Shown one piece after another: positions 2,969 through 54,009 of a DNA stretch of 57,860 nt. Below the pieces are notes generated by a model, which worked only from the letters and a program-made list of their open reading frames with translations, was not told the origin of the DNA and made no database searches. The translations under genes were made by a program, and so were the position numbers. Origin of the DNA: a virus; the IMG/VR virus record IMGVR_UViG_3300028920_002366, positions 1 through 57,860 of that record, one strand, 5' to 3'. Positions within the stretch are counted from its first letter, which is position 1, and each line of letters opens with the position of its first letter.

Positions 2969-3541
2969 ATGCAAATATTATATCGCACAAACGGAATAAT
3001 AATCGATAGCTCTAACGAACTGTCAATTAAGGAGTTAGTTATAAAAAACAAACATAACCTTTTGGATGCCGATCTCAAAAAAGCCGATCTTCGAGAAATC
3101 AATTTGCAAGGAGGCGATCTCCGGGAAGCCAATCTCAGTTTCGCTGATCTCCGGGAAGCCGATCTCTGGAACATAGATTTCCAGGATGCTAATCTCCGGG
3201 AGGCAGATCTCCGGAAAGCATTACTTGAGGATGTTAATTTTCAAGGTACAGATCTCCGAGAAGCAAATCTACAGGATGCTAATCTCAAAGGAACCTATCT
3301 CAAGGAAACAGACCTCAGAGGAGCAAAATACGATTACAAAAAACTCATGTTTCAAGTGGATTGGGATGAACTTTCCGAAGGCCTCACCCTCGAACTCATG
3401 CGCCAGGATGCTGATTTGAGTGGAAAACTAAGTTTTAGATATAAAAGATTATGGAAACCCGGAAAACCAAAATACGGAAAAGATCAGATGTGGGATCTTT
3501 TTAAGGCGCTTTGTGAGGAGAAGGGGGTGAAAATAAAATGA
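2969..3541 (+). CDS. Pentapeptide-repeat protein, cassette 3 (short)
   Basis: 190 residues, the shortest intact member. It has the family N-terminus (MQILYRTNGIIIDSSNELS), about 20 pentapeptides (residues 35-118), and a shortened C-terminal domain that keeps AKYDYKKLMFQVDWDELS and MRQD but lacks the NGGECPY section. RBS AAAGGAG lies in the end of recT. A stretch near 3207-3260 (RKALLEDVNFQGTDLR) recurs in cassette 8 at about 57650-57700. The stop overlaps the next start as ATGA. Confidence 0.9.
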   Translation: MQILYRTNGIIIDSSNELSIKELVIKNKHNLLDADLKKADLREINLQGGDLREANLSFADLREADLWNIDFQDANLREADLRKALLEDVNFQGTDLREANLQDANLKGTYLKETDLRGAKYDYKKLMFQVDWDELSEGLTLELMRQDADLSGKLSFRYKRLWKPGKPKYGKDQMWDLFKALCEEKGVKIK

Positions 3542-6418: not shown

Positions 6419-7882
6419 ATGGAAAATACAATCCCAATAAACGAAGAGATATCATCAAGGTTAGATACTTGGAATAGAATCGAAGCTCTTCTAACGCGAG
6501 ATGAAAATTATACCAAAAATAAACTATGTATACAGTTCCCAAACGAAAGCCAATCCGCTTACGAAGAACGAAAGAAATATTTTAATAGAACTTTTGTTAA
6601 CATAACTCAAGACCTTGTAAATGCCCCAGTTAATACTATATTTCGTCAAGGATTAAAAGATGAGTTTCGGCAAGATAATACTACATTGGAAAAATTTCAT
6701 AATAATGTTAATATTGGCGAAAATGAGATATCTCTTAGTGATTATATCCAAACTTATGTTGCTCCATCATTTAGGAGCTATGGTAATATTTGTTCACTTA
6801 TCGAGTTACCTGGAATTACGGTTAACAATAGACAGCAACAACAAGATCTAATTAAGCCGTATATTACAAATATAAAACTTCAAGATATTATCAATTGGCA
6901 GTATTATAATGATCAACTAATTTGGTTTGCTTACAAGGGCGCTTATTCAAAATTATGGCAGGACCCTATCAGTGAGCCTACCCCAGAGTCTCAGGGAGTT
7001 ACAATTTTGTGGACATTAGAAAAAGTATACATAATAGGTGATAATCAAAAAATAATTGACAGTTGGGATAATAAATATGGTATAATTCCAATTGTAATGA
7101 TGGGTACTTTTTATATTTCGCCTGAAAATCGTATTGGTAATGCTGCTATGTTTCAATCTTCACAGTCTATAGTAATAATGAATAACCTATTAAATCAAGG
7201 AGTATACGAGTTATTCAAACACGGAGGGTCATTATTACTTATGCACGAAGATTCTATGTTGGCCACAAACTTGACAACCGATAATGATGGTGAATCAAAA
7301 ATTAAAAGGCTTGATTATAATGGGATGCTTACAATGTCTGGAGAGGTGGAACCAAAATATTTAGTCAAAGAGCTAAAAACTGAAGATATTATGGAATGGG
7401 CAATGTATTACAAAAAAGAAGCTATAGAAAACGAAAGAGATCTTAGGAGTGTAGCAAATAAAGGGGTTAAAGGCAAAACAGTACAAGAGTCAGGGTTTGC
7501 TAAAGTAATTGACAGAGAGCCACTTGAAACAAACCTTATAGCTCTATCTAATAGTTGTGAGTTGTATACAAAAAAAATAAACAAAATTGTCAACACATTA
7601 ACAAATGAAAAAACAGAAAATATATTTGAATTCGATAAAGATTATGATATGAGAACCCTAAAACAAAAATACGAAGACATGCAGATAGCGATAAAAAACA
7701 GAGTAAACGATATTTCTCCTACTTTGTATAAAGAACTTTGGAAAAATATAGCACCAGAAAATGTTAAGGATCATGAAACACTTGATAAAATATTTGAAGA
7801 AATCGAAAGTTATAAAGATGATGATTTTGATGATGAAAATAATGAAATTATAGATCAATTTAATAATCTACAAAAAAAATAA
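6419..7882 (+). CDS. Portal protein
   Basis: 487 residues. The portal dodecamer forms the head vertex through which DNA passes. The assignment rests on position directly after terL, on length, and on the sequence YEERKKYFNRTFVNITQDLVNAPVNTIF with later helical segments (MEWAMYYKKEAIENERDLRS), which resemble portals of the DUF4055/SPP1-like type. The C-terminus is acidic (SYKDDDFDDENNE). RBS AAAGGA. Head genes do not follow directly; a 25-kb accessory island intervenes. Confidence 0.8.
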   Translation: MENTIPINEEISSRLDTWNRIEALLTRDENYTKNKLCIQFPNESQSAYEERKKYFNRTFVNITQDLVNAPVNTIFRQGLKDEFRQDNTTLEKFHNNVNIGENEISLSDYIQTYVAPSFRSYGNICSLIELPGITVNNRQQQQDLIKPYITNIKLQDIINWQYYNDQLIWFAYKGAYSKLWQDPISEPTPESQGVTILWTLEKVYIIGDNQKIIDSWDNKYGIIPIVMMGTFYISPENRIGNAAMFQSSQSIVIMNNLLNQGVYELFKHGGSLLLMHEDSMLATNLTTDNDGESKIKRLDYNGMLTMSGEVEPKYLVKELKTEDIMEWAMYYKKEAIENERDLRSVANKGVKGKTVQESGFAKVIDREPLETNLIALSNSCELYTKKINKIVNTLTNEKTENIFEFDKDYDMRTLKQKYEDMQIAIKNRVNDISPTLYKELWKNIAPENVKDHETLDKIFEEIESYKDDDFDDENNEIIDQFNNLQKK

Positions 7883-9036: not shown

Positions 9037-9915
9037 ATGCCGACACTATATCGCACAGACGGAACAATAATCGATAGCTCTAACAAGTTGTCGCTCACAG
9101 AGTTAGTAAGGAATAACAAAGATAAACTTTCGGAAGGTGATCTCCGGAAGGCCGATCTCCGTGGAGTCTATATCCGGAAGGCCAATCTCAGTTTCGCCGA
9201 TCTCCGGGAATCCGATCTCCGGGAATCCGATCTCCGGGAATCCGATCTCCAGGGAGCCGATTTCCGGAAAGTCGATTTCAGAAAAGCCAATCTCAGTTTC
9301 GCCGATCTCCGGGAAGTTAATTTCAGTTTCGCCAATCTCAGTTTCGCCGATCTCCAGAAAGCCGATCTCCTGGAATCCGATCTCCGGGAATCCGATCTCC
9401 AGGGAGCCGATTTCCGGAAAGTCGATTTCAGAAAAGCCGATCTCCGTTACGCCAATCTCCGGGAAGCCTATATCAGAAAAGCCAATCTCAGTTTCGCCAA
9501 TCTCCGGGAAGCCAATCTCAGTTTCGCAGATCTCAGTTTCGCCGATCTCCGAAAAGCCGATCTCCGAAAAGCCGATCTCCGAAAAGCAAATCTCCGCTGG
9601 TCTATAATCGACGAGGCAGACCTCCGCAACGCAAAATACGACTATGAGACAGTAATGCTTCAAGTTAATTGGGAAAAACTCTCCGACGAACTCACCTTAG
9701 AACTCATGCGCCAGGACGCGCAGCTTATCGGAGAAGAAATGATAACCAATTGGTCTAATGGCGGCGAATGTCCTTATGTATTTTTGGTAAGAAAACGAGA
9801 TTTCATATTCAAAGAAAGAAAGAAGCTCTGGAAAACCGGAAAACCAAAATACGGAAAAGATCAGACACGTGAGCTGTTTGAAGCTCTTTGTGAGGAGAAA
9901 GGGGTGAAGGTCTGA
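9037..9915 (+). CDS. Pentapeptide-repeat protein, cassette 4
   Basis: 292 residues: family N-terminus (MPTLYRTDGTIIDSSNKLS), repeats at about 35-185, shared C-terminal domain. It holds an internal duplication: the block SDLRESDLQGADFRKVDFRKA occurs twice (near 9220-9280 and 9380-9440), evidence of recombination inside the array. RBS AAAGGA lies in the end of the upstream glycosyltransferase. The 3' end GAGGAGAAAGGGGTG supplies the RBS of the next gene, whose ATG overlaps the TGA. Confidence 0.9.
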   Translation: MPTLYRTDGTIIDSSNKLSLTELVRNNKDKLSEGDLRKADLRGVYIRKANLSFADLRESDLRESDLRESDLQGADFRKVDFRKANLSFADLREVNFSFANLSFADLQKADLLESDLRESDLQGADFRKVDFRKADLRYANLREAYIRKANLSFANLREANLSFADLSFADLRKADLRKADLRKANLRWSIIDEADLRNAKYDYETVMLQVNWEKLSDELTLELMRQDAQLIGEEMITNWSNGGECPYVFLVRKRDFIFKERKKLWKTGKPKYGKDQTRELFEALCEEKGVKV

Positions 9916-12003: not shown

Positions 12004-12897
12004 ATGCCAACACTATATCGCGCAGACGGAACAACAATAGATAGCTCTAACAAGTTGTCACTCACAGAGTTAGTAAGGAAGAACAAGGATAAACTTTCGG
12101 AAGCCGATCTCAGGAAAGTCAATCTCCAGGGAGCCGATCTAAGTTTCGCCAATCTTAGTTTTGCTGATCTCCGGAAAGCCAATCTACAGGGAGTCGATCT
12201 CCAGAGAGCCGATTTCAGAAAAGCCAATCTCAGTTACGCAAATCTCCGGGAAGCCGATCTCCGAAAAGCCAATCTCCAGGGAGCCGATTTCCGGGAAGTA
12301 GATCCCAGTTTCGCCAATCTCCGAAAAGCCGATCTCCGAAAAGCCAATCTCAGTTACGCAAATCTCCGGGAAGCCAATATCAGTTGCGTTGATCTCAGTA
12401 GCGTTGATCTTAGTTATGCCAATCTCAGTTTCGCCAATCTCCGGAAATCCGATCTCAGTTTCGCCAATCTCAGTTTCGCCGATCTCCAGAAAGCCAATCT
12501 CCAGGGGTCCGATCTCAGTTTCGCCAATCTCCGGAAAGCCAATCTCAGTTTCGCCGATCTCCAGGAAGTAGATTTTCGCGGGTCGATAATCGATGATGCA
12601 GATCTCCGCAACGCGAAATATGACTACAAAACCCTAATGCTTCAAGTGAATTGGGAAAAACTTTCCGACGAACTCACACTCGAACTCATGCGCCAGGACG
12701 CGCAATTAATTGGAGAAGACATGATAACAGCCTGGGCTAATGGCGGCGAATGTCCTTACGAAGTTCTGTACAGAGATCGAGATTTCAAATTCAATGTAAA
12801 AAAACACCTCTGGAAAACCGGAAAACCGAAATACGGGGAAAATCAAATGAGACAACTTTTTGATGCGCTTTGTGAGGAGAAGGGTGTGAAAATATAA
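12004..12897 (+). CDS. Pentapeptide-repeat protein, cassette 5
   Basis: 297 residues with family N-terminus, array (about 35-190) and full C-terminal domain (DRDFKFNVKKHLWKTGKPKY). RBS AGGAG lies in the end of the exonuclease gene. Bases 12148-12231 are identical to parts of cassettes 7 and 8. The 3' 55 bp overlap the converging HNH gene. Confidence 0.9.
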   Translation: MPTLYRADGTTIDSSNKLSLTELVRKNKDKLSEADLRKVNLQGADLSFANLSFADLRKANLQGVDLQRADFRKANLSYANLREADLRKANLQGADFREVDPSFANLRKADLRKANLSYANLREANISCVDLSSVDLSYANLSFANLRKSDLSFANLSFADLQKANLQGSDLSFANLRKANLSFADLQEVDFRGSIIDDADLRNAKYDYKTLMLQVNWEKLSDELTLELMRQDAQLIGEDMITAWANGGECPYEVLYRDRDFKFNVKKHLWKTGKPKYGENQMRQLFDALCEEKGVKI

Positions 12898-13280
12898 TGG
12901 AAAGAGTTGAGATAATATCTGATTAATGCTAAATCATCATTTCTAAGTTTTGAGGTTACTTGATACATTTTTTTCATATCAAAATAATTAAGATTTTTTG
13001 ACTTTAAATAATCATCTCGTGTTTTGATATATTCGTCAACATCTGATTTAATCCGAAACATATGACACTTATAACACAATGTCATTCCATTTTCAATAAG
13101 AAACCAAGAATGTTTGTTGTTTTTTGTAATACCCCTAGATACAATATGGTGAGCTTGAAGACGGTCAGTAGCACCACACCATACACAATAAGGAGTGTTT
13201 TTTCTAATAATTTTTGACCATAATCCAAGTAATTTATTGATCTCAATTGTTCTTTTTTTTTGTTTAGATATTTTCTTCAT
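12843..13280 (-). CDS. HNH endonuclease (possible homing type)
   Basis: 145 residues, the only full minus-strand gene. Zinc-ribbon HNH domain: C32-x2-C35, the HH pair 44-45 (LQAHHIVSR), N64 in ENGMTLC and C69-x2-C72. Such enzymes nick or cut double-stranded DNA and in phages often promote transfer of their own locus. The last ~18 residues are encoded by the antisense of cassette 5 and are probably not original, so the gene seems to have lost its true end at the junction. Its 5' region is duplicated at 1-43. Confidence 0.75.
   Translation of the reverse strand: MKKISKQKKRTIEINKLLGLWSKIIRKNTPYCVWCGATDRLQAHHIVSRGITKNNKHSWFLIENGMTLCYKCHMFRIKSDVDEYIKTRDDYLKSKNLNYFDMKKMYQVTSKLRNDDLALIRYYLNSFHYIFTPFSSQSASKSCLI
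12897..12926 (+). pseudogene. Nine-codon remnant start after cassette 5
   Basis: ATG overlaps the cassette 5 TAA and is followed by only nine codons (MERVEIISD). This position holds a full gene after other cassettes, so it may be the cut head of a displaced gene, replaced by the HNH segment. Confidence 0.35.
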
Positions 13281-17848: not shown

Positions 17849-18577
17849 ATGCCAACACTATATCGCACAGACGGAGCAACAATAGATAGCTCTAACAAGT
17901 TATCACTCAAAGAGTTAGTAATGAAGAATAAAGATAAACTTACGGAAGTCGATCTCCGGAAGACCAATCTTCGGGGAGTCGATCTCAGTTTCGTCAATCT
18001 CAGTTTTGCTGATCTCCAGGGAGCAGATCTCCGTTTCGCTAATCTCCGAGAAGCCAATCTCCGGAAAGCCGATCTCCTGGGAGCCAATCTCCGAAAAGCC
18101 AATCTCAGTTACGCCAATCTCCGGGGAGCCGATTTCCGGGAAGCAAATCTCAAATCAACCAACCTCAAATCGGTCAACCTTTTCGGGGCAGATTGCAGTT
18201 TTGCTAATGCCCAAAAAACTAACCTTCGAGACATTGATTTGCGAGGAGTTGATTTGTGTCTGTTAAAAATAGCAGAGGCAGACCTCCGCAACGCAAAATA
18301 CGATTACAAAACCCTAATGCTTCAAGTGGATTGGGAAAAACTCTCCGATGAACTCACCTTAGAACTCATGCGCCAGGACGCGCAATTAATCGGAGAAGAA
18401 CTGATAACCGATTGGTCTAATGGCGGCGAATGTCCTTATGTAGTTTTAGATAAGTATCGAGACTTCAAATTCAAAGAAAAAATGAAACTCTGGAAACCCG
18501 GAAAACCAAAATACGGAAAAGATCAGATGCGGGATCTTTTTAAGGCTCTTTGTGAGGAGAAAGGGGTGAAGATCTGA
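17849..18577 (+). CDS. Pentapeptide-repeat protein, cassette 6
   Basis: 242 residues: family N-terminus (MPTLYRTDGATIDSSNKLSL), array of about 25 repeats, full C-terminal domain. The last repeats (LKSTNLKSVNLFGADCSFAN ... DLRGVDLCLLK) drift from the family vocabulary, as in an older or non-homogenised array end. RBS AGGAG at 17837-17841. Ends at TGA 18575. Confidence 0.9.
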   Translation: MPTLYRTDGATIDSSNKLSLKELVMKNKDKLTEVDLRKTNLRGVDLSFVNLSFADLQGADLRFANLREANLRKADLLGANLRKANLSYANLRGADFREANLKSTNLKSVNLFGADCSFANAQKTNLRDIDLRGVDLCLLKIAEADLRNAKYDYKTLMLQVDWEKLSDELTLELMRQDAQLIGEELITDWSNGGECPYVVLDKYRDFKFKEKMKLWKPGKPKYGKDQMRDLFKALCEEKGVKI

Positions 18578-18867
18578 AAACAAAAGTATTAAAAATATTA
18601 ATTATAATATATGTAATTACTTGTTTTGTGTATGTTGGTATAAGTATAACTCATATATATTTTCTGTTTTTTCAAAACAATTCAATTTGGTTAGAGAAAA
18701 TAAGGTTATTATTGCTTTCTGTACTTAGTACAATAATGTTACAGACAGTAATAATTTATTTTTATAATATATTTTTAGCAAAAGCAAAAGCAAAAGCAAA
18801 AGCAAAAGCAAAAGCAAAAGCAAAAGCAAAAGCAATAAAGGAGTTAAAAGATGTTTTCAAAAACTGA
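18574..18867 (+). CDS. Small membrane protein with (Ala-Lys)9 tail
   Basis: The open frame begins at CTG 18574, overlapping the cassette 6 stop, with GGGG upstream. The first conventional start is GTG 18628, which would remove most of the first TM helix. At the position where other cassettes are followed by ATG, this one has TGAAAA, so the ATG may have been lost and CTG used. Two TM helices, then nine GCAAAA repeats encoding Ala-Lys, then IKELKDVFKN. The 3' end overlaps the methyltransferase gene. Function unknown. Confidence 0.45.
   Translation: MKTKVLKILIIIYVITCFVYVGISITHIYFLFFQNNSIWLEKIRLLLLSVLSTIMLQTVIIYFYNIFLAKAKAKAKAKAKAKAKAKAIKELKDVFKN
18778..18831 (+). repeat. Hexanucleotide microsatellite (GCAAAA)9
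   Basis: Nine perfect tandem GCAAAA units followed by GCAATA. It lies inside the frame and, being 6 bp long, changes in copy number alter only the length of the Ala-Lys tail. Confidence 0.95.
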
Positions 18868-19889: not shown

Positions 19890-21119
19890 ATGTACAAAAC
19901 AAAAACAACATATACAGACAAAAAAAAGATAATAAAAATGAGTAGAAAAATATTTCTTGATTGTGGAGCATGGAAAGGTAACTCAGTCTCAAAATTCATA
20001 GAAATTTTCGAAGACGCAGATAAATATAAGATATATTGTTTCGAGCCTGATCCAAATTGCATCAAAATTCTTAATCAAATTCAGGATTTTCGATTATATG
20101 ATATAGAAGTAATTAATGCTGCTTGTTGGATATCAGATTGTCAAAAAACTTTGAGGGTAGGCAGAAGTTCTGAATCTAATAGTCTTGTTAAGACAAAAAC
20201 AATCAAAGGGTACCAAAAAAGTAACAATATCTTAGTTGATTGTATAGATTTGCCAAAATTGATTCGGGAAAAGTTCGATATTGGTGATTATATTGTGCTG
20301 AAAATGAATATTGAAGGAGCTGAGTACGAAATTCTAGACAAAATGATATCTGACGGCAGTATATATTATATCGATGAATTGTATGTAGATTTTCATTATG
20401 GCAAAATCAAGAACTTTGACAATGCTAAGCATTATCAAATTATCGACAAGCTTGAGAGATTGGGATTATATCCCAAAAAATGGTCATTAGACCATAAGAA
20501 AAAAGTAGTATATTCAGTAATCACAGGAAAAGATAGTGTATATCAACTCAATGAGCCAAAAATAGTTACACCTGGATGGGATTATATATGTTTCACCGAC
20601 AAAAAAATTAATTCAGATATTTGGGAAATTGTCAAAATTCAAAAGTATAGTATATCCCCACAAAAAATGTCCCGCAAAATTAAAATATTGTCAACAACTT
20701 TCCTTTCAGAATATGATTTTTCCTTATATATAGACAGTAGATTTACCATACAATGCAATCTTGACAAATTTCTCAAATCATCTGATGCAAAAAATAATGA
20801 TATTGTTGTGATGCGGCACAATAAAAGAAAATGTGCTTATAAGGAGGCACTAAAACTAAAAATATATACTTCAAAACAAATCAACAGATATGCAAAAGAA
20901 AATTTTCCTAATAATTTTGGCCTATTTGCACCGGGAATAATGATAAGAAACCACAAATCAAAAAATCTTAGCAATATGCTAAGATGTTGGTGGAACGAGG
21001 TATTACTTGGATCACACAGAGACCAAATAAGTCTTGCATATTCAATTTGGAAACATCCAAAAATTAAAATTAATTTGTTAGATTTCAATAAAACTTATAC
21101 AAAGTTCATGGCTAGGTAG
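19890..21119 (+). CDS. FkbM-type methyltransferase fused to DUF616-like glycosyltransferase
   Basis: 409 residues, two domains. About 18-195: FkbM-family methyltransferase with KIFLDCGAWKGNSVSKF (SAM loop), YCFEPDPN, and KMNIEGAEYEIL. About 205-405: a domain resembling DUF616 glycosyltransferase-like proteins (VVYSVITGKDSVYQL ... DYICFTDK ... YDFSLYIDSRFTI ... GLFAPGIMIRNH ... WWNEVLLGSHRDQISL), with D-S-R in the place of a DxD motif. The fusion suggests addition and O-methylation of one sugar. Start may be 19890 or ATG 19938; neither has a good RBS, and the methyltransferase fold begins only after the second. Confidence 0.65.
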   Translation: MYKTKTTYTDKKKIIKMSRKIFLDCGAWKGNSVSKFIEIFEDADKYKIYCFEPDPNCIKILNQIQDFRLYDIEVINAACWISDCQKTLRVGRSSESNSLVKTKTIKGYQKSNNILVDCIDLPKLIREKFDIGDYIVLKMNIEGAEYEILDKMISDGSIYYIDELYVDFHYGKIKNFDNAKHYQIIDKLERLGLYPKKWSLDHKKKVVYSVITGKDSVYQLNEPKIVTPGWDYICFTDKKINSDIWEIVKIQKYSISPQKMSRKIKILSTTFLSEYDFSLYIDSRFTIQCNLDKFLKSSDAKNNDIVVMRHNKRKCAYKEALKLKIYTSKQINRYAKENFPNNFGLFAPGIMIRNHKSKNLSNMLRCWWNEVLLGSHRDQISLAYSIWKHPKIKINLLDFNKTYTKFMAR

Positions 21120-21128
21120 TATTAACAA

Positions 21129-21584
21129 ATGGGAAACAAAAGTAGTTGTTTTGCGGATATATTAAAAAAGACTAGGCTACAACTTGTTGAAATTAAACAA
21201 ATTCCAGTGGCTAACATAAAGTGTCAGTATAACCCAGATAGATTCAAATTTTGGGAAAAAGTTTGTGGTAGTTCGCTTAATATTAATACTGGACCTTTTT
21301 GGTATTATCTTGAAACTGGTAATACTTGCAAATATTTTGAAGTTTTTCGAGGATATGGTAGATCGAATAAATGGATTATTAGAAATATAATTGATTTTAA
21401 TAGCCTTATTAAAGACGTTAAAAAAAATGGAATCAGAGAACTCCCTCTTGTTTTGAAAAAGCCTCTTGTGAAAAATGATTATAATGACGGGTATGAAATA
21501 TTTGAAGGTCACAGGAGGCTTTCTATTGCATTGCACTTCAACATTCGTCAAAAAATTAAATTATGTGAGGTAGTTAATGAATAA
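21129..21584 (+). CDS. ParB/Srx-like domain protein
   Basis: 151 residues. The end reads GIRELPLVLKKP ... YEIFEGHRRLSIALHFN, the ParB-like box (GHRR-L) of the ParB/sulfiredoxin superfamily; the N-terminal VEIKQIPVANIKCQYNPDRF also fits. ParB proper hydrolyses CTP and binds DNA; small homologues inside polysaccharide clusters have no settled role. It overlaps the next gene by 8 bp. Confidence 0.55.
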   Translation: MGNKSSCFADILKKTRLQLVEIKQIPVANIKCQYNPDRFKFWEKVCGSSLNINTGPFWYYLETGNTCKYFEVFRGYGRSNKWIIRNIIDFNSLIKDVKKNGIRELPLVLKKPLVKNDYNDGYEIFEGHRRLSIALHFNIRQKIKLCEVVNE

Positions 21585-22245
21585 TAATTTAGGTGATATC
21601 TTAGATAAAAAAGATACTTCGGCAAATTTTCTGGTACTCGGGTCTGGTACAACAGTGGGTAAATATATTGAAAACTTAAAAAAGTTTATCGTAAAACAAA
21701 ACTGCCTTGTTATTGGGATAAATAATGTTCATCCAGATATTTTTCCACATTTTCATTTTTTTACTAATACTAAGAGATTTCAAAAGTATTATAAAAATGT
21801 TAAGGATGAATCGGCTCTTATTATAAGTAATAATATAAATGTGGAGTATGATTTTTTGGACGATTATATCCAGCTTAACAGACCTTATTACCGAATTCAA
21901 TATCATGACTTTGTTTTTGATGGAGTATACAAAAAACCGAGTATTGTCACTGACACTATTATGGGATCATTTCGGACTGCTGGTGTACTTGCTATATATT
22001 TGTGTAAGTTACTCGGTGGCATTGAAATATATGTTGCAGGTATGGACGGATATGGGTATAATATTAACCAACAACATTATTATGTCGACAAAGATGATGA
22101 TGATACAGAGCAATCGGCCAAAGAAAAAGATATAGTGATTAATAGATGTCTGGATTTAGTTGCCGAAAAGGTTAATTTTGGGATAATAACCCCTACTATA
22201 TACAAAAAACATAAAAACTATCATTATTGGAAAGATTTTAGGTGA
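21577..22245 (+). CDS. Rossmann-type sugar-transferase-like protein
   Basis: 222 residues. Begins FLVLGSGTTVGKYIENLKKF, then INNVHPDIFPHFHFFTNTKRF, and ends with SFRTAGVLAIYLCKLLGGIEIYVAGMDGYG. This resembles GT42/DUF115-like folds, and (from memory) the C-terminal domain found fused to the DRE-TIM aldolase of bacterial surface-glycan clusters. Here that aldolase is a separate gene (23107). It may transfer the CMP-activated acid sugar made by the next enzymes; this is inference. Confidence 0.45.
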   Translation: MNNNLGDILDKKDTSANFLVLGSGTTVGKYIENLKKFIVKQNCLVIGINNVHPDIFPHFHFFTNTKRFQKYYKNVKDESALIISNNINVEYDFLDDYIQLNRPYYRIQYHDFVFDGVYKKPSIVTDTIMGSFRTAGVLAIYLCKLLGGIEIYVAGMDGYGYNINQQHYYVDKDDDDTEQSAKEKDIVINRCLDLVAEKVNFGIITPTIYKKHKNYHYWKDFR

Positions 22246-22257
22246 AAGGAATCAAAA

Positions 22258-22428
22258 ATGTTCAAACTAACTGAAGCAGAAATAATATTTTTAAAATCTC
22301 TTAAAAATAGGTGTTCGGGACTATCTGGGTGTAATATGTGTAGATTTAACGTAAATAACAAATGTTATCTTGCGGTATTGCCTCTAAACTTAAAAATAGA
22401 AGAGATTATTGAGATTAATAAGGAGTAA
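22258..22428 (+). CDS. Small four-Cys protein (56 aa)
   Basis: ATG 22258 with AAAGGA upstream. C19, C25, C28, C36 form a compact likely metal site (CSGLSGCNMCRFNVNNKC). Its last codons hold the AAGGAG RBS of the following gene. Confidence 0.55.
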   Translation: MFKLTEAEIIFLKSLKNRCSGLSGCNMCRFNVNNKCYLAVLPLNLKIEEIIEINKE

Positions 22429-22429
22429 T

Positions 22430-23089
22430 ATGAAAAAAATAAATATAATAGCAAGTAGAGATATAAATATTAATATATGCGGCATAGAATATTCTTGGCC
22501 GAAAGGAAATGTTTTAAATGTTTTGTGTTTTAATGGAGATATTTCTATGTCATCAGCCAATGGCGAAGATTTTTACGATTTAGACACAAAAGTATTCTAT
22601 TTTTGTTTTGGCTATATGGCGTATGAAAAGATATACGGTTTTGAGGAGTTTCAAAAAAAGAAAAATAAAAAAAACAAAAAGAAAGATTGTACAATAAATA
22701 AACACCTGAAAAGGATAACAGAACTATATAACAAAACAACGTGCTTTGGTGAGTCTTATGATGACTATAGGATATATTTGTCTTGGAAATTTATATTAGC
22801 AGAAATCCAAAAATATGATATAGATAGTTATAATTATGAACACATAATTAATAATTTGAAATATTATATAGAATCATATGAAATGTCATGGCGCGAATTA
22901 GAAGATTGGAGATTCCATCCAACTGTTGAGAATGTTCTTCTCTATGAAAAAGCTATAATAGGCCATATTGCAACAACTACAAAAGAAGATTTTGAAGAAA
23001 TATATGAAGGTATTGAAAAAACACGCGAATGGTTATACAATTTCTGGGAAGAAAAATTAGAACAAAAAAGAATAGATTACCGTTATTAA
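22430..23089 (+). CDS. Hypothetical protein (219 aa)
   Basis: ATG 22430 has AAGGAG 5 nt upstream. A beta-rich N-terminus (NIIASRDININICGIEYSWP), a Lys/Asn-rich insert (about 73-90), then a helical C-terminal two-thirds rich in aromatic and acidic residues. No known family recognised. It lies between the ParB-like/transferase pair and the aldolase, so may belong to the glycan pathway. Confidence 0.5.
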   Translation: MKKINIIASRDININICGIEYSWPKGNVLNVLCFNGDISMSSANGEDFYDLDTKVFYFCFGYMAYEKIYGFEEFQKKKNKKNKKKDCTINKHLKRITELYNKTTCFGESYDDYRIYLSWKFILAEIQKYDIDSYNYEHIINNLKYYIESYEMSWRELEDWRFHPTVENVLLYEKAIIGHIATTTKEDFEEIYEGIEKTREWLYNFWEEKLEQKRIDYRY

Positions 23090-23106
23090 TACTAAGAAAG
23101 GAATAG

Positions 23107-24126
23107 ATGAAACTACTAGACTGTACTCTTAGAGATGGAGGATACCTTACAAATTGGGATTGGAAAATAAGCCTGGTGAAAAAATACCTTGAAGTAATGT
23201 CAAAATATGTGGATATAATTGAGCTTGGGTATAGATCACCGAAAAATGAGAAATTTCATAAATATGGTGATTATAGATTTTGTGATGATGCTATATTAGG
23301 AAAAATATTTAGCTTTGCTGATATTAATCCAAGAGCTGAATTTGGCGTAATGGTAGACCTTAAAGATTATGTTGAAAACGGATATTTGGATTGGGGATTA
23401 TTGGAAAATAATTTCTATCCCAATACATGTGATATCGTATTCGATTGGGTTCGTATTGCTATATCTGCAGACCAATGGGATCAGTGTAAGCCAGCTATTG
23501 CGATATTGAAAGATCTCGGATACAAGATAATTGTTTCAGTGATGAAATGCAGCACTGTAGAAAAACAGATATTGCAAACAAAAGAAGACTTTGAATTAGC
23601 TTATGACATAGATGTAATGTATATAGCTGATTCTTTTGGTGCTTGTTACGGCGATATAATGAATCAGAGACTAGACCAGATATGGGCAAGAAAGATTATC
23701 GATACAGAGGTAGGAAACAATCTCTACGGGATACATTGCCACAATCATCTTAATATGGCTTTTGCTAATTGTATTAATACAAGGGTACATTATTGTGACG
23801 GGACTATATGTGGGTTAGGTCGAGGTCCTGGTAATTGTGACATTGAAGATATTATAGCCTATAGAGACTGTGTTGTTCCAGAAGACATTGAAAATCTAAG
23901 AAAGGAACATTTCGAAAAACTCAAATTATTATGTGATTGTCACACAAATAATGCCTACAGGTACAGTGCTATCAACAACATACACCCTAGATATGTCGAT
24001 CATATCAAAAACAAGTTGAATATTGAATCAGAGTTTGGTACAATTAAGATATTGGAAAAATTATCTTATGATGATTATGAAAACTTTAATTCGAACTACA
24101 AAAAAAAGGGGGGCTGTGATGATTAA
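23107..24126 (+). CDS. DRE-TIM metallolyase (HMGL-like aldolase)
   Basis: 339 residues. Begins LLDCTLRDGGYLTNWDW: the CTLRDG signature of the HMG-CoA-lyase/4-hydroxy-2-oxovalerate aldolase superfamily with its catalytic Arg and metal Asp. The metal-binding HxH appears in GIHCHNHLNMA (about 207-217), followed by DGTICGLGRGPGN. These enzymes make or break C-C bonds next to a keto acid. Beside a CMP-sugar synthetase it probably makes or alters a ulosonic acid (inference). RBS AAAGGA; the end overlaps the next gene by 8 bp. Confidence 0.75.
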   Translation: MKLLDCTLRDGGYLTNWDWKISLVKKYLEVMSKYVDIIELGYRSPKNEKFHKYGDYRFCDDAILGKIFSFADINPRAEFGVMVDLKDYVENGYLDWGLLENNFYPNTCDIVFDWVRIAISADQWDQCKPAIAILKDLGYKIIVSVMKCSTVEKQILQTKEDFELAYDIDVMYIADSFGACYGDIMNQRLDQIWARKIIDTEVGNNLYGIHCHNHLNMAFANCINTRVHYCDGTICGLGRGPGNCDIEDIIAYRDCVVPEDIENLRKEHFEKLKLLCDCHTNNAYRYSAINNIHPRYVDHIKNKLNIESEFGTIKILEKLSYDDYENFNSNYKKKGGCDD

Positions 24127-24832
24127 AATACTAATTCCAGTGAGAATGGGATCTACTAGATTCCCAGGAAAATGCTTCAAAAAAATAAAAGGAAAAACAA
24201 TACTACAAAGAGTATACGAAACTTGCAGAAATTATTATCTTAATACAGAAGTAATAGCAGATTTTCCTTGGTGTCAAGCATCTTATATTAATAAGTCTGA
24301 TTTTAGTAATATTAATAACGAATGCTGTACTGGTACTGACAGAGTGCGCATGTATATCGAAAGTAGTAATGGATATAATGACAGTGATACTATAATAATA
24401 GTTCAGGCGGATGAACCTATGATCAAAATAGAGGATGTCCAAAAAATATATTATGCGAAACTAGCTAATCCTGATTCTATTTTTGGTATGTGTTGTGGTT
24501 TTTTCGCAGAAGAAGACAATGTGCACACGCCAAAAGTGATATTAAGAAATCATAACGATATTTCTGATCTTATCTATATATCGCGGACGATTAAGCCTAC
24601 TATACAGATGTGCTATAAGCAAATTGGGGTATATGCTTACACAGTAAGGCAATTGATAGATATATACGATAATAATGAAAGAGGCCTACTTGAGTCTATC
24701 GAAGATGTGGAATTACTTAGATGTATAGACAAAGGGTATGATGTTAAGATGATATATACCAGTAATAGTTATCAGGCAGTTGATGTACCGTCAGATATAC
24801 AAAAAGTAGAAAGGTTAATGAAAAATGGTTAG
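24119..24832 (+). CDS. CMP-sugar (CMP-Kdo-like) cytidylyltransferase
   Basis: 237 residues from ATG 24119 (GGGGGG upstream, overlap with the aldolase stop). The CTP loop IPVRMGSTRFPGKCFKKIKGK (about 5-25) is diagnostic of the KdsB/NeuA family. CTGTDRV (about 69-75) and IIVQADEPMI (about 91-100) with the metal Asp fit KdsB, as does VDVPSDIQKVERL near the end. It activates a 3-deoxy-2-ulosonic acid with CTP. Length matches KdsB. The actual sugar need not be Kdo. Confidence 0.8.
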   Translation: MIKILIPVRMGSTRFPGKCFKKIKGKTILQRVYETCRNYYLNTEVIADFPWCQASYINKSDFSNINNECCTGTDRVRMYIESSNGYNDSDTIIIVQADEPMIKIEDVQKIYYAKLANPDSIFGMCCGFFAEEDNVHTPKVILRNHNDISDLIYISRTIKPTIQMCYKQIGVYAYTVRQLIDIYDNNERGLLESIEDVELLRCIDKGYDVKMIYTSNSYQAVDVPSDIQKVERLMKNG

Positions 24833-25415
24833 AAATCATATATTCGTAACAGGTTTCGAATCGTCTGGCACTACTATGTTAAGGCGAATAATATCTATGC
24901 ATCCATGCCTGCAAAAAGACCTTATTCATGAAGGGAAAAAACTTTTTTCATATAGCGATAGAAATGATGCTGATATGCGGTATGGAGATAAGTATACAAG
25001 TGTAGTAAGTGGTGAAAAAATACCTTATTTTTGTAATCATGAGTATGTAGTGCAATATATTAGGCGATGGAAACAGTATTGGCCTAATGCTCCAATCTTC
25101 CATATAATACGCAATCAAGCCAAAATTGCTGCGTCATCAGCCAGAAGGTTTGGTAGGTCTTATGATTACACTATGGATACATACAAAAAAAACGAGAATT
25201 ATATGCGTGCTTTCCTACAGGATATATCTGATGTACAACATGTTTTCTATGAGCTATTTGTTGTAGAGCCAATCAGGACCGTGAAAAGTATATATGATTA
25301 TATTGGTGGTGATGTTAGCTACCAATACATCAGAAAAGTTATATCTACTAGAGACCCATGGTATTATGGGAAGAAGCGGTGTTGTGGTTTGAGATACAAA
25401 GAAACAGTTAAGTAA
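24825..25415 (+). CDS. Sulfotransferase
   Basis: 196 residues. The 5'-phosphosulfate loop is FVTGFESSGTTMLRRIISMH (7-26), and the 3'-phosphate-binding Arg/Ser pair is IIRNQAKIAASSARR (R96, S104). These are the two PAPS-binding elements of the sulfotransferase superfamily. It is shorter than most (about 250-300). It overlaps the cytidylyltransferase by 8 bp. It probably sulfates the phage- or host-borne glycan built by the neighbouring enzymes. Confidence 0.7.
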   Translation: MVRNHIFVTGFESSGTTMLRRIISMHPCLQKDLIHEGKKLFSYSDRNDADMRYGDKYTSVVSGEKIPYFCNHEYVVQYIRRWKQYWPNAPIFHIIRNQAKIAASSARRFGRSYDYTMDTYKKNENYMRAFLQDISDVQHVFYELFVVEPIRTVKSIYDYIGGDVSYQYIRKVISTRDPWYYGKKRCCGLRYKETVK

Positions 25416-27124: not shown

Positions 27125-28072
27125 ATGGTTTGGTTACTGTTACGAGGTGAATGGGACGAAAGAACAGCGTTATCAATCAAAACAGATGATGATTTGTATA
27201 TTCAGTTGTTTTCAGAATTGTTGAATAATGATGATACTGGAGTGGTATTTTTCAAATCAAACAAAAAACGAAAAATACGGTATAACGATAAAATAACAAT
27301 ATATAGTGACTACGAAAAAAACGCAGACAACCGTTATGCCGTATTTTCTTCTGCTAACATCGTTATGTCTAGGGGTGGGTTTCAGTGGCAAGTAGACGTG
27401 TTAAACAGTCTACCGGACAAAACGATTAAGATACGTTATGGTGCTGGCAGAAGGTTTCTGCCAGAGAATGAACAATATCACCTGGTATTAGTCGATACTG
27501 AAAAACAAAAAGAACAAGTAGAGGCCGTATATCCAAATATTAATACAGCCATCTTTTTAAAACCAGCAGCAAGACAGTTCCAACCAGACAATGCCGTAAA
27601 AAAAGAATACGATGTGTGCTACATTGCTAATTCACAACAAGCCCGGTGGAAGGGGCTTGAGTGGGTCTATGCAACAGCTCCGAAGGACCTTAAAATATTA
27701 CATCTTGGTTATCCTCCGAAACAGAAAGGTCCTCAAAACATAACAAATAAAAGAATAAATCGCATTGATATGCCAGGTATGATTAATAAGTGCAAGGTTG
27801 GTATAGTACCTTATTGGAATGGTATTGATAGTTGTCCACGAGCTTTGATCGAAATGATATCTTGTGGCTTACCTGTTGCAATGTCTAATGATACAAATAT
27901 AGACTTGCAAAGTTATGATAGATATGGTACAATTATACCACTAGCAAAAGATGAATTTTGGTTAGGCGTACAAAGGATGGCAATCCGCTATGAGTGGTTT
28001 TTCCCTTATAATATAGAAAAATTAGATATCAATGTAGCTGCAAAATCACTCAAACAACAATTGTGGGGGTAA
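27125..28072 (+). CDS. Glycosyltransferase, GT-B fold (GT4-like)
   Basis: 315 residues. C-terminal motif DSCPRALIEMISCGLPVAMS (about 238-257) is the GT4 donor site; YDVCYIANSQQARWKGLEWV opens the second Rossmann domain. RBS AGGGGG. Its base composition is a little richer in G+C than the neighbours. Confidence 0.75.
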   Translation: MVWLLLRGEWDERTALSIKTDDDLYIQLFSELLNNDDTGVVFFKSNKKRKIRYNDKITIYSDYEKNADNRYAVFSSANIVMSRGGFQWQVDVLNSLPDKTIKIRYGAGRRFLPENEQYHLVLVDTEKQKEQVEAVYPNINTAIFLKPAARQFQPDNAVKKEYDVCYIANSQQARWKGLEWVYATAPKDLKILHLGYPPKQKGPQNITNKRINRIDMPGMINKCKVGIVPYWNGIDSCPRALIEMISCGLPVAMSNDTNIDLQSYDRYGTIIPLAKDEFWLGVQRMAIRYEWFFPYNIEKLDINVAAKSLKQQLWG

Positions 28073-28073
28073 T

Positions 28074-28403
28074 ATGAAAAAAGACAGTTTTTTAAAATTC
28101 TTGCAAGATTCTGAAAAATTTTGGGATAAAATGAATAAGTTCAAATTTTTTGGGACTAGCTATAGCCCCGAGTTTGAAGATCAAGATGAAATACATTTCG
28201 TTTGTTACGCAAAAAAACTTGATCCAGTTGTTTTAGAAACAATTATGTCAGGTAAAAAAACAAAAACATGTCATTACGGCGGAAATTACGAAGAAAAGGT
28301 TTGTAGTCCTGAATCTGAGTCATATACCAACACTCTTGAAGTTTATAAAATTGAAAGGTTCTGTTTTTTTGTATATTCAGACAAAAGGATGAAAAATGGA
28401 TAA
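28074..28403 (+). CDS. Hypothetical protein (109 aa)
   Basis: Lies between two glycosyltransferases and overlaps the second by 8 bp. Begins with a helical MKKDSFLKFLQDSEKFWDKM; the remainder is beta-rich with two Cys. No family recognised. Confidence 0.5.
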   Translation: MKKDSFLKFLQDSEKFWDKMNKFKFFGTSYSPEFEDQDEIHFVCYAKKLDPVVLETIMSGKKTKTCHYGGNYEEKVCSPESESYTNTLEVYKIERFCFFVYSDKRMKNG

Positions 28404-29187
28404 ACCAAAACTATATGCTGGCTTTTTCGTTGGCGAATTCGGTTGGGAGTTGATGCGATGGCAAGGGTTTCTTAGGCACATGTCTTGTTCATATGATATT
28501 GTAGTTGGCTGTGAGAAAGACAAAACATTTCTGTATCAAGACTTTGCCCACAGTTTTGTCATATATCCAGGCAAGGTTAATACTAGGAATATGTGGCTTT
28601 GTAACGGCAAAGTATTTCCACTATATAGCCAAATAGAAAAAACTGACGTAGAATATTATGTACCATCGAAAGATATATGTCTTAATGATAATCTTAATCA
28701 AGATTTTATCAGGTATGGGCAAAAAGCTGAAGAAAATAAATACGATATAATATTACACGCCAGATCTACTGGTAATATTAAGTCAAGCTACCGCAATTGG
28801 CCAATATCGAAATGGGATCAACTTATTGAGCTGTTGAAAAAGAAATATAACTTGAGAATAGCTTGTATGGGATCGAAGGCAGGGGCTGATTACATTAATG
28901 GTACGACGAACCTGATAGGAAAACCATTAGAACAGATAGCGAATGACATATGCCGTTCCAGGGTGTTTGTGTCTCCATCATCTGGTCCTGTACATTTTGC
29001 ATCTTTGTGCGGCAAACAGCATATTGTATGGTCGGACAAAAAAGACAGAGGAATATACAAAAACAAAGAAAGATATCTTGATACTTGGAATCCATTGAAA
29101 ACAAAGTGTAAATTCATTCCAAAATGGCAACCATCAATATACACAGTATATGAGGCTATAGAAGAAACCCTTAACCTGAGAGGATAA
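28396..29187 (+). CDS. Heptosyltransferase-like glycosyltransferase (GT9-like)
   Basis: 263 residues. RNWPISKWDQLIELLKKKY (about 134-152) and SRVFVSPSSGPVHFASLCGK (about 193-212) are the GT9 hallmarks, where Pro-Ser-Ser-Gly-Pro-x-His corresponds to the D-S/T-G-x-x-H donor site. N-terminal FFVGEFGWELMRWQGFLR resembles the acceptor-domain start. GT9 enzymes transfer heptose to LPS core, so it hints at a Gram-negative-like glycan; the sugar used here is unknown. Confidence 0.75.
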   Translation: MDKPKLYAGFFVGEFGWELMRWQGFLRHMSCSYDIVVGCEKDKTFLYQDFAHSFVIYPGKVNTRNMWLCNGKVFPLYSQIEKTDVEYYVPSKDICLNDNLNQDFIRYGQKAEENKYDIILHARSTGNIKSSYRNWPISKWDQLIELLKKKYNLRIACMGSKAGADYINGTTNLIGKPLEQIANDICRSRVFVSPSSGPVHFASLCGKQHIVWSDKKDRGIYKNKERYLDTWNPLKTKCKFIPKWQPSIYTVYEAIEETLNLRG

Positions 29188-29188
29188 T

Positions 29189-29947
29189 ATGGGAAAAGAA
29201 GTGTTACCAATATTAATTACAACCTATAATCGTTACGAATATTTTCAGAAAATGTATGTAAGCTTGTATAATTCATTGGATTATAATAATATATACTACA
29301 AGAAAAAAATAATTAATATATATGACGATTGCAGTACAGAAAAAAATATTACAAGCGCATTAAAAATGTTAAACGAATGTCACAAGGTTAATTTCCGGGA
29401 AAAAAATGTAGGTACAACACTCAACACCCTTCAGGCTATAGATCAATGTTTCGAATATTATAGTACAGATTATGTTGTTGCTCTACAAAGTGACATAATA
29501 TTTTGTGAAACATGGTTAGATCGTGGTATGACTATCTTTGAAAAAATTATAGAAAGATACAAAGATATTAATATTGGGTTTTTGGGTCTGTTCAATAGAA
29601 GCAATAAGGAAAATAGACATTATTATATACTGAAAACTGGTCACCCTGGCGGTTGTGCTTGGATAGTAAGGCGAAAGTTTTGGGATAATTATAAAAATAA
29701 ATTTGCTATAAATGACGACATTACAGATATTTTGACATACTGCGATATCTCGAAAGGGCCTAAAAATGCAATGACTCGTCATAAAATTAAGAACCTAGTT
29801 GATTACAAACTTGCTCACAGGGCTCATTCCATCAACTGGCACTGTGCTAAGGTTGGTGACTCTCTTGTACAGCATATTGGACACAAAAGTAGTGTAAGTG
29901 ATCGAGACATGTCCGAATTCGATTCTACTTGTTTTATTCGAAATTAA
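29189..29947 (+). CDS. Glycosyltransferase family 2 (GT-A)
   Basis: 252 residues. ILITTYNRYEYFQKMYVSL opens a GT2 domain. INIYDDCSTEKNI gives the first acidic pair, VVALQSDIIF the metal site, and GGCAWIVRRKFWDNY the acceptor-side region. The last glycosyltransferase of the island. Its 3' end contains the -35 of the next promoter. Confidence 0.75.
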   Translation: MGKEVLPILITTYNRYEYFQKMYVSLYNSLDYNNIYYKKKIINIYDDCSTEKNITSALKMLNECHKVNFREKNVGTTLNTLQAIDQCFEYYSTDYVVALQSDIIFCETWLDRGMTIFEKIIERYKDINIGFLGLFNRSNKENRHYYILKTGHPGGCAWIVRRKFWDNYKNKFAINDDITDILTYCDISKGPKNAMTRHKIKNLVDYKLAHRAHSINWHCAKVGDSLVQHIGHKSSVSDRDMSEFDSTCFIRN

Positions 29948-53445: not shown

Positions 53446-54009
53446 ATGCGAATCACAAAAAAATGGCTTATAGAAAAATATGCTTGCGAACCAGGATTAT
53501 TATGGTTTTGTAACCAGTCTGAGATAAATCCCATAAAAATAATCAAAAAGCTTATGTTAGAGGATCGTTATGAATGGGGTAGCTGGTTGATTACAAACAT
53601 TCTTACAAAGAAAGATAATATCTTATACGCGATATTCGCAGCGGAAAAAGTACTCCATATTTTCGAAGAAAAATATCCAAACGACAAAAGACCAAGGAAA
53701 GCTATCGAAGTAGCTAAAAAATATTTAAGTAATTTTTACGCATCTGCTGCTGCTGATGCTGCTGCTGCTGCTGCTGTTGATGCTTCTGATGCTGCTTATA
53801 TTGATGATGCTACGGCAGCTGCTGATGCTGCGGCAGCTGCTTATTCTACTGCTGCTGCGGTTACTTCTGACTATATTACTTCTTCTGTTTATGCTGATTC
53901 TGCTTATGCTGATTCTGCTTCTGCGGCAGCTTATAATAATAATTCAGACTATTATTTAGAAAAAAAAATAATAAATTATGGGATCGATTTACTTAAAAAA
54001 CAAGAGTAA
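53446..54009 (+). CDS. Ala-rich protein of the phage 'putative immunity' type
   Basis: 187 residues. The first ~100 are globular (ILYAIFAAEKVLHIFEEKYPNDKRPRKAIEVAKKYL), a block I recognise from phage proteins annotated as putative immunity (Imm-5-like). Residues 100-160 are an Ala/Asp/Ser tract from GCT/GCA/GAT repeats (AAADAAAAAAVDASDAAY). Length of this tract probably varies. Function unknown. RBS AAGGAG. Confidence 0.6.
   Translation: MRITKKWLIEKYACEPGLLWFCNQSEINPIKIIKKLMLEDRYEWGSWLITNILTKKDNILYAIFAAEKVLHIFEEKYPNDKRPRKAIEVAKKYLSNFYASAAADAAAAAAVDASDAAYIDDATAAADAAAAAYSTAAAVTSDYITSSVYADSAYADSASAAAYNNNSDYYLEKKIINYGIDLLKKQE

Follow-up and report, generated by a model that had tools for sequence, protein, structure and literature searches.

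Does a phage carry its own genes to form, activate and transfer an acidic sugar, and perhaps to sulfate it? An earlier note read such a pathway from four ordered genes in a stretch of 57,860 nucleotides (IMG/VR record IMGVR_UViG_3300028920_002366, positions 1 to 57,860), referred to here as the window. The contig holds TerL, portal and major head protein genes (PHROGs) and is a genuine phage, as yet uncultured. To our knowledge, cells rely on PEP-dependent synthases for the CMP-activated ulosonic acids whose biosynthesis is known, i.e., Kdo and the sialic, pseudaminic and legionaminic acids. We consider it reasonably probable that the genes described here form a glycan module in which a pyruvate aldolase, rather than a PEP synthase, leads to a CMP-activated 3-deoxy-2-ulosonic acid that is then transferred to a glycan.

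Layout and recurrence of the locus

The features of the locus, with two related phages (L096 and L099) for comparison, are as follows.

21129-21584, plus strand: small ParB/sulfiredoxin-like protein with an EGHRR motif (cluster c115 in L096, L099 and the window)
21577-22245, plus strand: MptE/Maf/GT42-fold protein, probable CMP-ulosonate transferase (predicted from the fold)
22258-22428, plus strand: small ORF outside the conserved module (missing in L096 and L099)
22430-23089, plus strand: ORF outside the conserved module (missing in L096 and L099)
23107-24126, plus strand: DRE-TIM/HMGL-like aldolase (PF00682, 2e-10)
24119-24832, plus strand: predicted KdsB/KpsU-type CMP-ulosonate synthetase (PF02348, 9.5e-17)
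24825-25415, plus strand: predicted PAPS-type Sulfotransfer_3 protein (PF13469, 4.4e-13; PF00685, 2e-5)
27125-28072, plus strand: GT4-type glycosyltransferase (cluster c117; weak GT1-group match in the window, 3.5e-4 in L099)
28396-29187, plus strand: GT9-like glycosyltransferase (PF01075, 2.8e-4, slightly below the cut-off; cluster c118)
29189-29947, plus strand: GT2 glycosyltransferase (PF00535, 1.9e-6; cluster c119)

The coordinates of the four genes and three of their families stand as first described, and the 8-bp overlaps claimed between the last three are exact, at 24119-24126 (aldolase and cytidylyltransferase) and 24825-24832 (cytidylyltransferase and sulfotransferase). The run of four has to be corrected at one point, given that the transferase-fold gene is not adjacent to the aldolase, from which it is separated by 861 bp and the two ORFs at 22258-22428 and 22430-23089, the latter of which matched neither Pfam nor NCBIfam. 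In L096 and L099, where these ORFs are missing, the transferase-fold gene and the aldolase overlap by 4 bp, and the transferase, aldolase and cytidylyltransferase genes form one overlapping run. The syntenic block starts one gene earlier, at 21129-21584, which overlaps the transferase-fold gene by 8 bp and has a counterpart directly upstream of that gene in both relatives. The product of this first gene has no Pfam match above cut-off, and its likeness to ParB was judged by eye.

The GT4-type, GT9-like and GT2 genes are kept in both relatives, with the GT4-type gene lying downstream of the module in each, and in all three phages the block is found upstream of the major head protein gene, amid structural genes. 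None of the PHROGs covers any of the four proteins, and searches of the contig, which is possibly a fragment, found no HAD, SIS or DAHP/KDO8P synthase genes (PF00702, PF01380, PF00793).

Single-sequence scans of the viral contig collection with the aldolase and the cytidylyltransferase gave no matches, and the viral loci were found with profile A3. In about 45 of the 54 viral aldolases, a cytidylyltransferase is fused or adjacent, usually with an MptE/sialyltransferase-fold gene and a HAD phosphatase nearby. The two enzymes are fused to each other in about 37 viral loci, and the loci with this fusion also hold an MptE-fold gene (22 loci) and a small HAD gene (31 loci). Bacterial aldolases of the same family, 60-odd in number, carry at their C-terminus a fused domain of the 21577-22245 type, and a cytidylyltransferase lies no more than three genes away in 55 of the 66 cases with the fusion, but in only 1 of the 16 without it (Fisher p 1e-8). 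These fusion counts were made with domain-cut HMMs, the iterated HMMs having been discarded because the fusions caused them to drift from one domain to another. HAD phosphatases adjoin the pair in other phages and in bacteria, GT29-like sialyltransferases lie near it in L044, L077, L079, L109, L117 and L133, and in Leisingera NJS204 the aldolase, cytidylyltransferase, HAD, GT2 and sulfotransferase genes all lie within one polysaccharide locus.

The sole matches in the phage collection (L002-L004) are unannotated faecal scaffolds with housekeeping genes (purM/purN, lgt and queA-like ORFs, named by eye); as they look like bacterial DNA, they were not counted as phage evidence.

Given that the same three or four genes stand together in related phages, and that dozens of loci in viruses and bacteria show the pairing, the grouping is not due to chance. 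The earlier claim that no phage was known with this combination must be narrowed, as about 45 viral contigs, and bacterial loci as well, have it; it does hold that no isolated phage with the combination was found, and that a literature search, mostly without subscription journals, returned no description of this module in phages.

Aldolase and cytidylyltransferase

The aldolase belongs to PF00682 (41 bits against the Pfam cut-off of 29), falls in a viral clade of the tree, and has as its closest solved relative PDB 3dxi (1.6e-19), which is titled "putative aldolase". Residues D5, R9, D10, H210, H212 and N243, i.e., the Asp, HxH and Asn of the metal site and the Arg of the RD motif, are intact, and the catalytic residues are invariant across 138 relatives, the window included. 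On the other hand, the protein falls far short of the DmpG equivalog TIGR03217 (56 bits against 286), with Tyr13 replacing the catalytic His that follows RDG. As the His that serves as base in DmpG is this Tyr, and the Tyr of DmpG is His293 here, the alignment suggests that the chemistry may differ from that of DmpG. This exchange, together with a weak similarity to isopropylmalate synthases, would also fit an enzyme that runs another DRE-TIM reaction, of Claisen type or a lyase, in which case the activated acid would not be an aldol-made ulosonic sugar. We consider this improbable, given that the best characterised match is 4-hydroxy-2-oxovalerate aldolase and that the partner enzyme comes from the KdsB-type family, which activates 3-deoxy-2-ulosonic acids.

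The cytidylyltransferase starts at the ATG at 24119, a longer TTG ORF from 24023 having been rejected as an artefact. It is a member of PF02348 (62 bits against 22.6) and matches KpsU (PDB 1gq9, 1.7e-17). The CTP loop R..S.R.PGK is kept (R9, S12, R14, K18) and both metal Asp residues, D98 and D222, are intact, so that the catalytic residues on which the earlier proposal depended are present on alignment in this enzyme as in the aldolase. The NCBIfam models of KdsB proper are approached from below: PRK13368 matches at 6.4e-43, yet with 146.8 against a cut-off of 255, and TIGR00466 reaches 63 against 155.

These scores bear on whether the module simply follows a known route to CMP-Kdo or a sialic acid, in which the aldolase would play no part. 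The closeness of the cytidylyltransferase to KpsU/KdsB and the presence of NeuB in some viral loci with the pair would agree with such a route, which we nevertheless regard as very unlikely. The canonical Kdo genes, for KDO8P synthase, arabinose-5-P isomerase and KdsC phosphatase, are unmatched in the contig (possibly a fragment), as are DAHP-type and SIS genes; the cytidylyltransferase scores far below the KdsB cut-offs; and the aldolase is fused to the cytidylyltransferase in many viruses. The pair also occurs together in the Gram-positive Rossellomorea, Bacillus and Microthrix, which argues against the Kdo of LPS.

Transferase-fold protein and sulfotransferase

The protein encoded at 21577-22245 matches MptE-like PF01973 only weakly (E 0.02, 15.1 against a cut-off of 34.6). 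By sequence, a 74-row profile (A5) used in a PDB search finds MptE at 4e-4 and CstII at 3.5e-3; no meaningful PDB match came from a three-row profile (A6). The earlier note had proposed a comparison with GT42, and the AF2 model (pLDDT 81, pTM 0.82) bears the idea out, with best agreement to Maf 5mu5 (VIA Z 14.9, 192 residues, rmsd 3.5), followed by MptE 8sd5 (VIA Z 12.9), the GT42 enzyme CstII 1ro7 (VIA Z 11.2, 178 residues, rmsd 3.8) and a GT29 sialyltransferase (Z 10.8), while unrelated folds give Z of 5 or less. Most of the domain therefore has the predicted fold of the GT42, Maf and GT29 sialyltransferases. Known Maf/GT42 members use CMP-ulosonate donors; the fold is also common to MptE and thiamine pyrophosphokinase, so that by itself it is no proof of sugar transfer.

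An HMM built from the C-termini of the bacterial aldolases matches this protein at 8.8e-8, and hhalign pairs it with their C-terminal domain at a probability of 98.4; judging from these alignments, it is a standalone homologue of that domain. Given this, the protein could instead serve the aldolase as a partner or as a ligand-binding domain, with another phage glycosyltransferase using the CMP-sugar. In bacteria, it is the aldolase and not the cytidylyltransferase that carries the fused domain, and this domain is without the His-bearing QHxY loop, for which reason it may play another role there; furthermore, separate GT29-like sialyltransferases are present in some of these loci (L044, L077, L079). 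We judge this unlikely for the phage protein, given that Q166-H167-x-Y169 is invariant in its lid region and that its fold agrees best with that of a glycosyltransferase. In other phages, the MptE-fold protein has a gene of its own and carries an invariant HFY at the corresponding position; the L117 gene scores 39 on PF01973 (cut-off 34.6), and the MptE-fold gene of viruses with the aldolase-cytidylyltransferase fusion also models as Maf/GT42. A transferase role thus remains our preferred reading.

The last gene encodes a member of PF13469 (50.4 bits against 27), with the PAPS loops SSGTT (5') and RNQAKIAAS (3') and an E within IHEGKKL; it had no match in PDB or the phage collection at the limits used. 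It is present in L096, where the orthologue (phmmer 1.9e-45) directly follows the cytidylyltransferase after a 2-bp gap, and absent from L099. This patchiness, and the fact that surface-sugar loci commonly hold sulfotransferases, give a little under an even chance that it is a neighbour by accident, serving another glycan or a protein; its place directly after the cytidylyltransferase, with the overlap in the window and the short gap in L096, and the sulfotransferase near the pair in Leisingera NJS204 speak for a link to the module.

Proposed pathway and known systems

Computation thus yields families, folds, intact motifs, domain fusions and a conserved gene order. From these, we infer the chemistry of each step, the identity of the sugar, its acceptor and its purpose. 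The aldolase would join a pyruvate enolate, held by the metal on D10, H210, H212 and N243, to a host-derived sugar aldehyde or sugar-phosphate aldehyde, giving a 3-deoxy-2-ulosonic acid, from which the phosphate, where carried, would be removed by a host HAD phosphatase. The KdsB-type enzyme would then use CTP to form the CMP-ulosonate, and the MptE/GT42-fold protein would move the sugar from CMP onto a glycan built by the many glycosyltransferases of the phage, with His167 as the likely base. The sulfotransferase may place sulfate from host PAPS on the same glycan or on another product of the locus. Given that the block sits amid structural genes, ahead of the one for the major head protein, the likeliest targets would be proteins of the virion or polysaccharide on the surface of the infected cell. 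The earlier pathway is in this way supported in part, for making, activation and transfer (motifs, fold, fusions, co-occurrence, and the GT29-like sialyltransferases or HAD phosphatases near the pair elsewhere), with sulfation of that sugar as a putative further step. DNA glycosylation was set aside as a purpose, nothing on the contig suggesting base hypermodification; we know of no ulosonate-modified DNA.

More tentatively, a whole family of PEP-independent ulosonic-acid pathways could exist in many phages and bacteria, combining a His/Tyr-exchanged DRE-TIM aldolase with a CMP-ulosonate synthetase and a partner of MptE/GT42 fold, and serving phages to decorate virions or infected cells with a new acidic sugar that may be sulfated. 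The wide occurrence of the pair, with different fusions in viruses and in bacteria, suggests that a second route exists, perhaps leading to new acidic sugars. Such a pathway would account for many of the "putative aldolase" genes seen where surface sugars are encoded, and would show phages carrying sugar formation and activation beyond glycosyltransferases.

Among known systems, bacterial surface-polysaccharide operons (e.g., those of Leisingera plasmids NZ_CP081095 and NZ_CP035420) have the same aldolase, cytidylyltransferase type and MptE-fold domain, under the annotations "aldolase catalytic domain-containing protein", "3-deoxy-manno-octulosonate cytidylyltransferase" and HAD hydrolase, and Leisingera NJS204 also shares the sulfotransferase. 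They differ from the phage module in that the MptE-fold domain is fused to the aldolase and lacks the His loop, and in the presence of the HAD phosphatase; the literature searched held no biochemical study of these operons. Maf 5mu5 and CstII 1ro7 share the predicted fold of the transferase gene product at 15-17% identity, although the phage protein is much shorter than the Maf flagellin glycosyltransferase. The aldolase resembles DmpG 1nvm and 3dxi in its DRE-TIM barrel, RD motif, HxH and GxGxGN, and differs from DmpG in the exchanged active-site residues (Tyr13, His293) and in an equivalog score far below the cut-off.

Finally, Cafeteria roenbergensis virus and Fadolivirus have a predicted Kdo pathway with an arabinose-5-P isomerase and a PEP-dependent KDO8P synthase (PMC9614988). 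Common to both is the predicted synthesis of a CMP-activated 3-deoxy-2-ulosonic acid by genes of the virus itself, whereas in the phage the DRE-TIM aldolase would replace the KDO8P synthase route, whose genes were not found on the contig. The prophage genes epaA and epaB, which convert pseudaminic to 8-epipseudaminic acid in the Acinetobacter capsule (PMC12053666), are likewise phage genes that alter an acidic ulosonic sugar at the host surface; they modify a sugar of the host, whereas the present module itself carries the putative genes for formation and activation.

Module layout and related phages

The window is a linear virus record of 57.9 kb that encodes a terminase, a portal and a major head protein (PHROGs), as well as a DnaG primase. 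The long interval between the portal and head protein genes houses many glycosyltransferases, together with the four genes of the module.

Features of the window
6419-7882, portal (PHROGs)
21577-22245, plus strand, transferase-fold gene, 222 aa
23107-24126, plus strand, aldolase, 339 aa
24119-24832, plus strand, cytidylyltransferase, 237 aa from the ATG at 24119
24825-25415, plus strand, sulfotransferase, 196 aa
35605-36537, major head protein (PHROGs)
146-1444, 2969-3541, 9037-9915, 12004-12897, 17849-18577, 56314-57297 and others, pentapeptide-repeat-like proteins

The 8-bp overlaps described in the earlier note among the last three module genes are exact; between the transferase-fold gene and the aldolase lie 861 bp that hold two ORFs. 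A search of IMG/VR found only two relatives that cover the module region, the phage contigs L096 and L099. Both conserve the gene order: a GHRR protein comes first, then the transferase-fold gene and the aldolase, which overlap by 4 bp, and after them the cytidylyltransferase, the GT4, GT9-like and GT2 genes and the head genes. The sulfotransferase is also present in L096, where the cytidylyltransferase (L096:10945-11660) carries a frameshift that leaves a 172-aa ORF, reflecting either real decay or a sequencing error.

Other features of the window include a fused gene (19890-21119) of an FkbM methyltransferase domain and a TOD1/MUCI70-type glycosyltransferase domain, the latter being a gene of its own in L099, and an ORF (18628-18867) that encodes consecutive AK dipeptides (AKAKAKAKAKAKAKA), a repeat that is likely prone to slippage. 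A member of an Imm5-like immunity-protein family (PF21805, 4.9e-10) lies at 53446-54009, directly before the phage DnaG gene. At least six, and probably eight, pentapeptide-repeat-like paralogues with a near-identical start (LYRTDG..IDSSN.L) are spread across the genome, with no clustering with genes of related loci, and a lone minus-strand ORF (12843-13280), which encodes an HNH endonuclease (PF01844, 9.9e-6), overlaps the end of one of them.

Aldolase, cytidylyltransferase and sulfotransferase

The aldolase is HMGL-like (2e-10), and its closest solved structure is the putative aldolase 3dxi (1.6e-19), followed by 4-hydroxy-2-oxovalerate aldolases. The catalytic residues of the aldolase and the cytidylyltransferase are kept, with D5, R9, D10, H210, H212 and N243 invariant or nearly so among 130-138 relatives of the aldolase, and the CTP loop and D98/D222 preserved in the cytidylyltransferase. 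The aldolase belongs to the DRE-TIM group, yet falls outside the DmpG equivalog: in a comparison with annotated DmpG, Tyr13 (51/51 viral and 65/66 long bacterial rows) occupies the position of the His following RDG, and His293 (47/51 and 59/66, respectively) that of a Tyr. This exchange is suggestive, because the His of DmpG/BphI acts as the catalytic base and the Tyr contacts the substrate.

On a tree of the aldolases, the window sequence joins the viral ones (SH-aLRT 85), a tentative grouping given its long branch. A second viral class of the family (L134, L135, L137-L142) is found between an SDR gene and the gene of an apparent TPP-dependent enzyme; these loci lack a cytidylyltransferase, and their aldolases probably serve another sugar pathway.

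The nearest kin of the cytidylyltransferase are KpsU/KdsB (1gq9, 1.7e-17), and it is of the KdsB type while scoring under the KdsB cut-offs; PRK13368 matches it at 6.4e-43, yet under its own cut-off. The sulfotransferase passes that of PF13469.

The transferase-fold protein and domain fusions

By sequence, 21577-22245 has a weak MptE-like match (E 0.02) and scores under the PF01973 cut-off. The likeness to GT42 raised earlier was borne out by a structure model built from 74 sequences (pLDDT 81, pTM 0.82), the top fold match of which is Maf, a flagellin glycosyltransferase (Z 14.9 over 192 residues), followed by archaeal MptE (Z 12.9), SteA (Z 12.0), the GT42 sialyltransferase CstII (Z 11.2) and mammalian GT29 sialyltransferases (Z about 10), with unrelated folds at Z 5 or below, except for thiamine pyrophosphokinase (about 8.8). 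A PDB sequence search with the 74-sequence profile recovered MptE (4e-4) and CstII (3.5e-3), and Q166, H167 and Y169 are invariant in all three phage members.

A profile search yielded 80 bacterial and 53 IMG/VR loci. Most of the bacterial aldolases have about 535 aa, with a C-terminus longer by 200 residues, and an HMM of these extra residues was run against 7241 ORFs. Its best intact non-aldolase matches were the transferase-fold genes of L096 (2e-9), the window (8.8e-8) and L099 (5e-7), surpassed only by two pieces of one split aldolase gene (L067), and hhalign aligned the phage family with the bacterial C-terminus at a probability of 98.4%. Judged from these matches, the aldolase and the MptE-fold domain are separate genes in the phage and one fused gene in bacteria. 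The split fusion (L067:7986-9592, Vreelandella azerica) is broken inside the C-terminal domain, probably by a frameshift.

A cytidylyltransferase lies within three genes of 55/66 long bacterial aldolases vs 1/16 short ones (p 1e-8, kinship ignored), and a HAD gene equally near about 38 of the long ones. The viral arrangement differs: about 37 loci encode aldolase and cytidylyltransferase as one fused protein, and a cytidylyltransferase is fused or adjacent to about 45 of 54 viral aldolases, counting the window and near-copies. These regions include an MptE-fold gene in 22 viral loci, which likewise models as Maf/GT42 (Z 11.4 and 9.2), and a small HAD gene in 31; several of the contigs carry phage clamp loader and exonuclease genes. 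A GT29-like protein, with sialyltransferases as its top PDB matches (2.6e-6), is encoded near the pair in three bacterial and three viral loci.

Proposed pathway and known systems

In the proposed pathway, the aldolase would join pyruvate to a host sugar aldehyde to form a 3-deoxy-2-ulosonic acid, which the KdsB-type enzyme would convert to its CMP-activated form, for transfer either by the protein with the MptE/GT42 fold or by another transferase encoded nearby, and the sulfotransferase would place sulfate from PAPS onto the glycan. Of this route, as put forward in the earlier note, formation and activation are supported by family, residues and co-occurrence, and transfer by predicted fold and co-occurrence; for sulfation, only gene position points to the step. 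No HAD, SIS or DAHP/KDO8P-type gene was found on the window contig, so that a phosphorylated intermediate would require a host enzyme, unless the aldehyde is unphosphorylated.

The literature searched holds no description of an aldolase-based route in phages, of its fusions, or of the link to a sialyltransferase-fold domain. Pseudaminic acid modification has been described for Acinetobacter prophages (PMC12053666). The giant viruses CroV and Fadolivirus have a predicted CMP-Kdo synthesis that proceeds via a PEP-dependent synthase (PMC9614988), whereas the route proposed for the window phage would be based on an aldolase.
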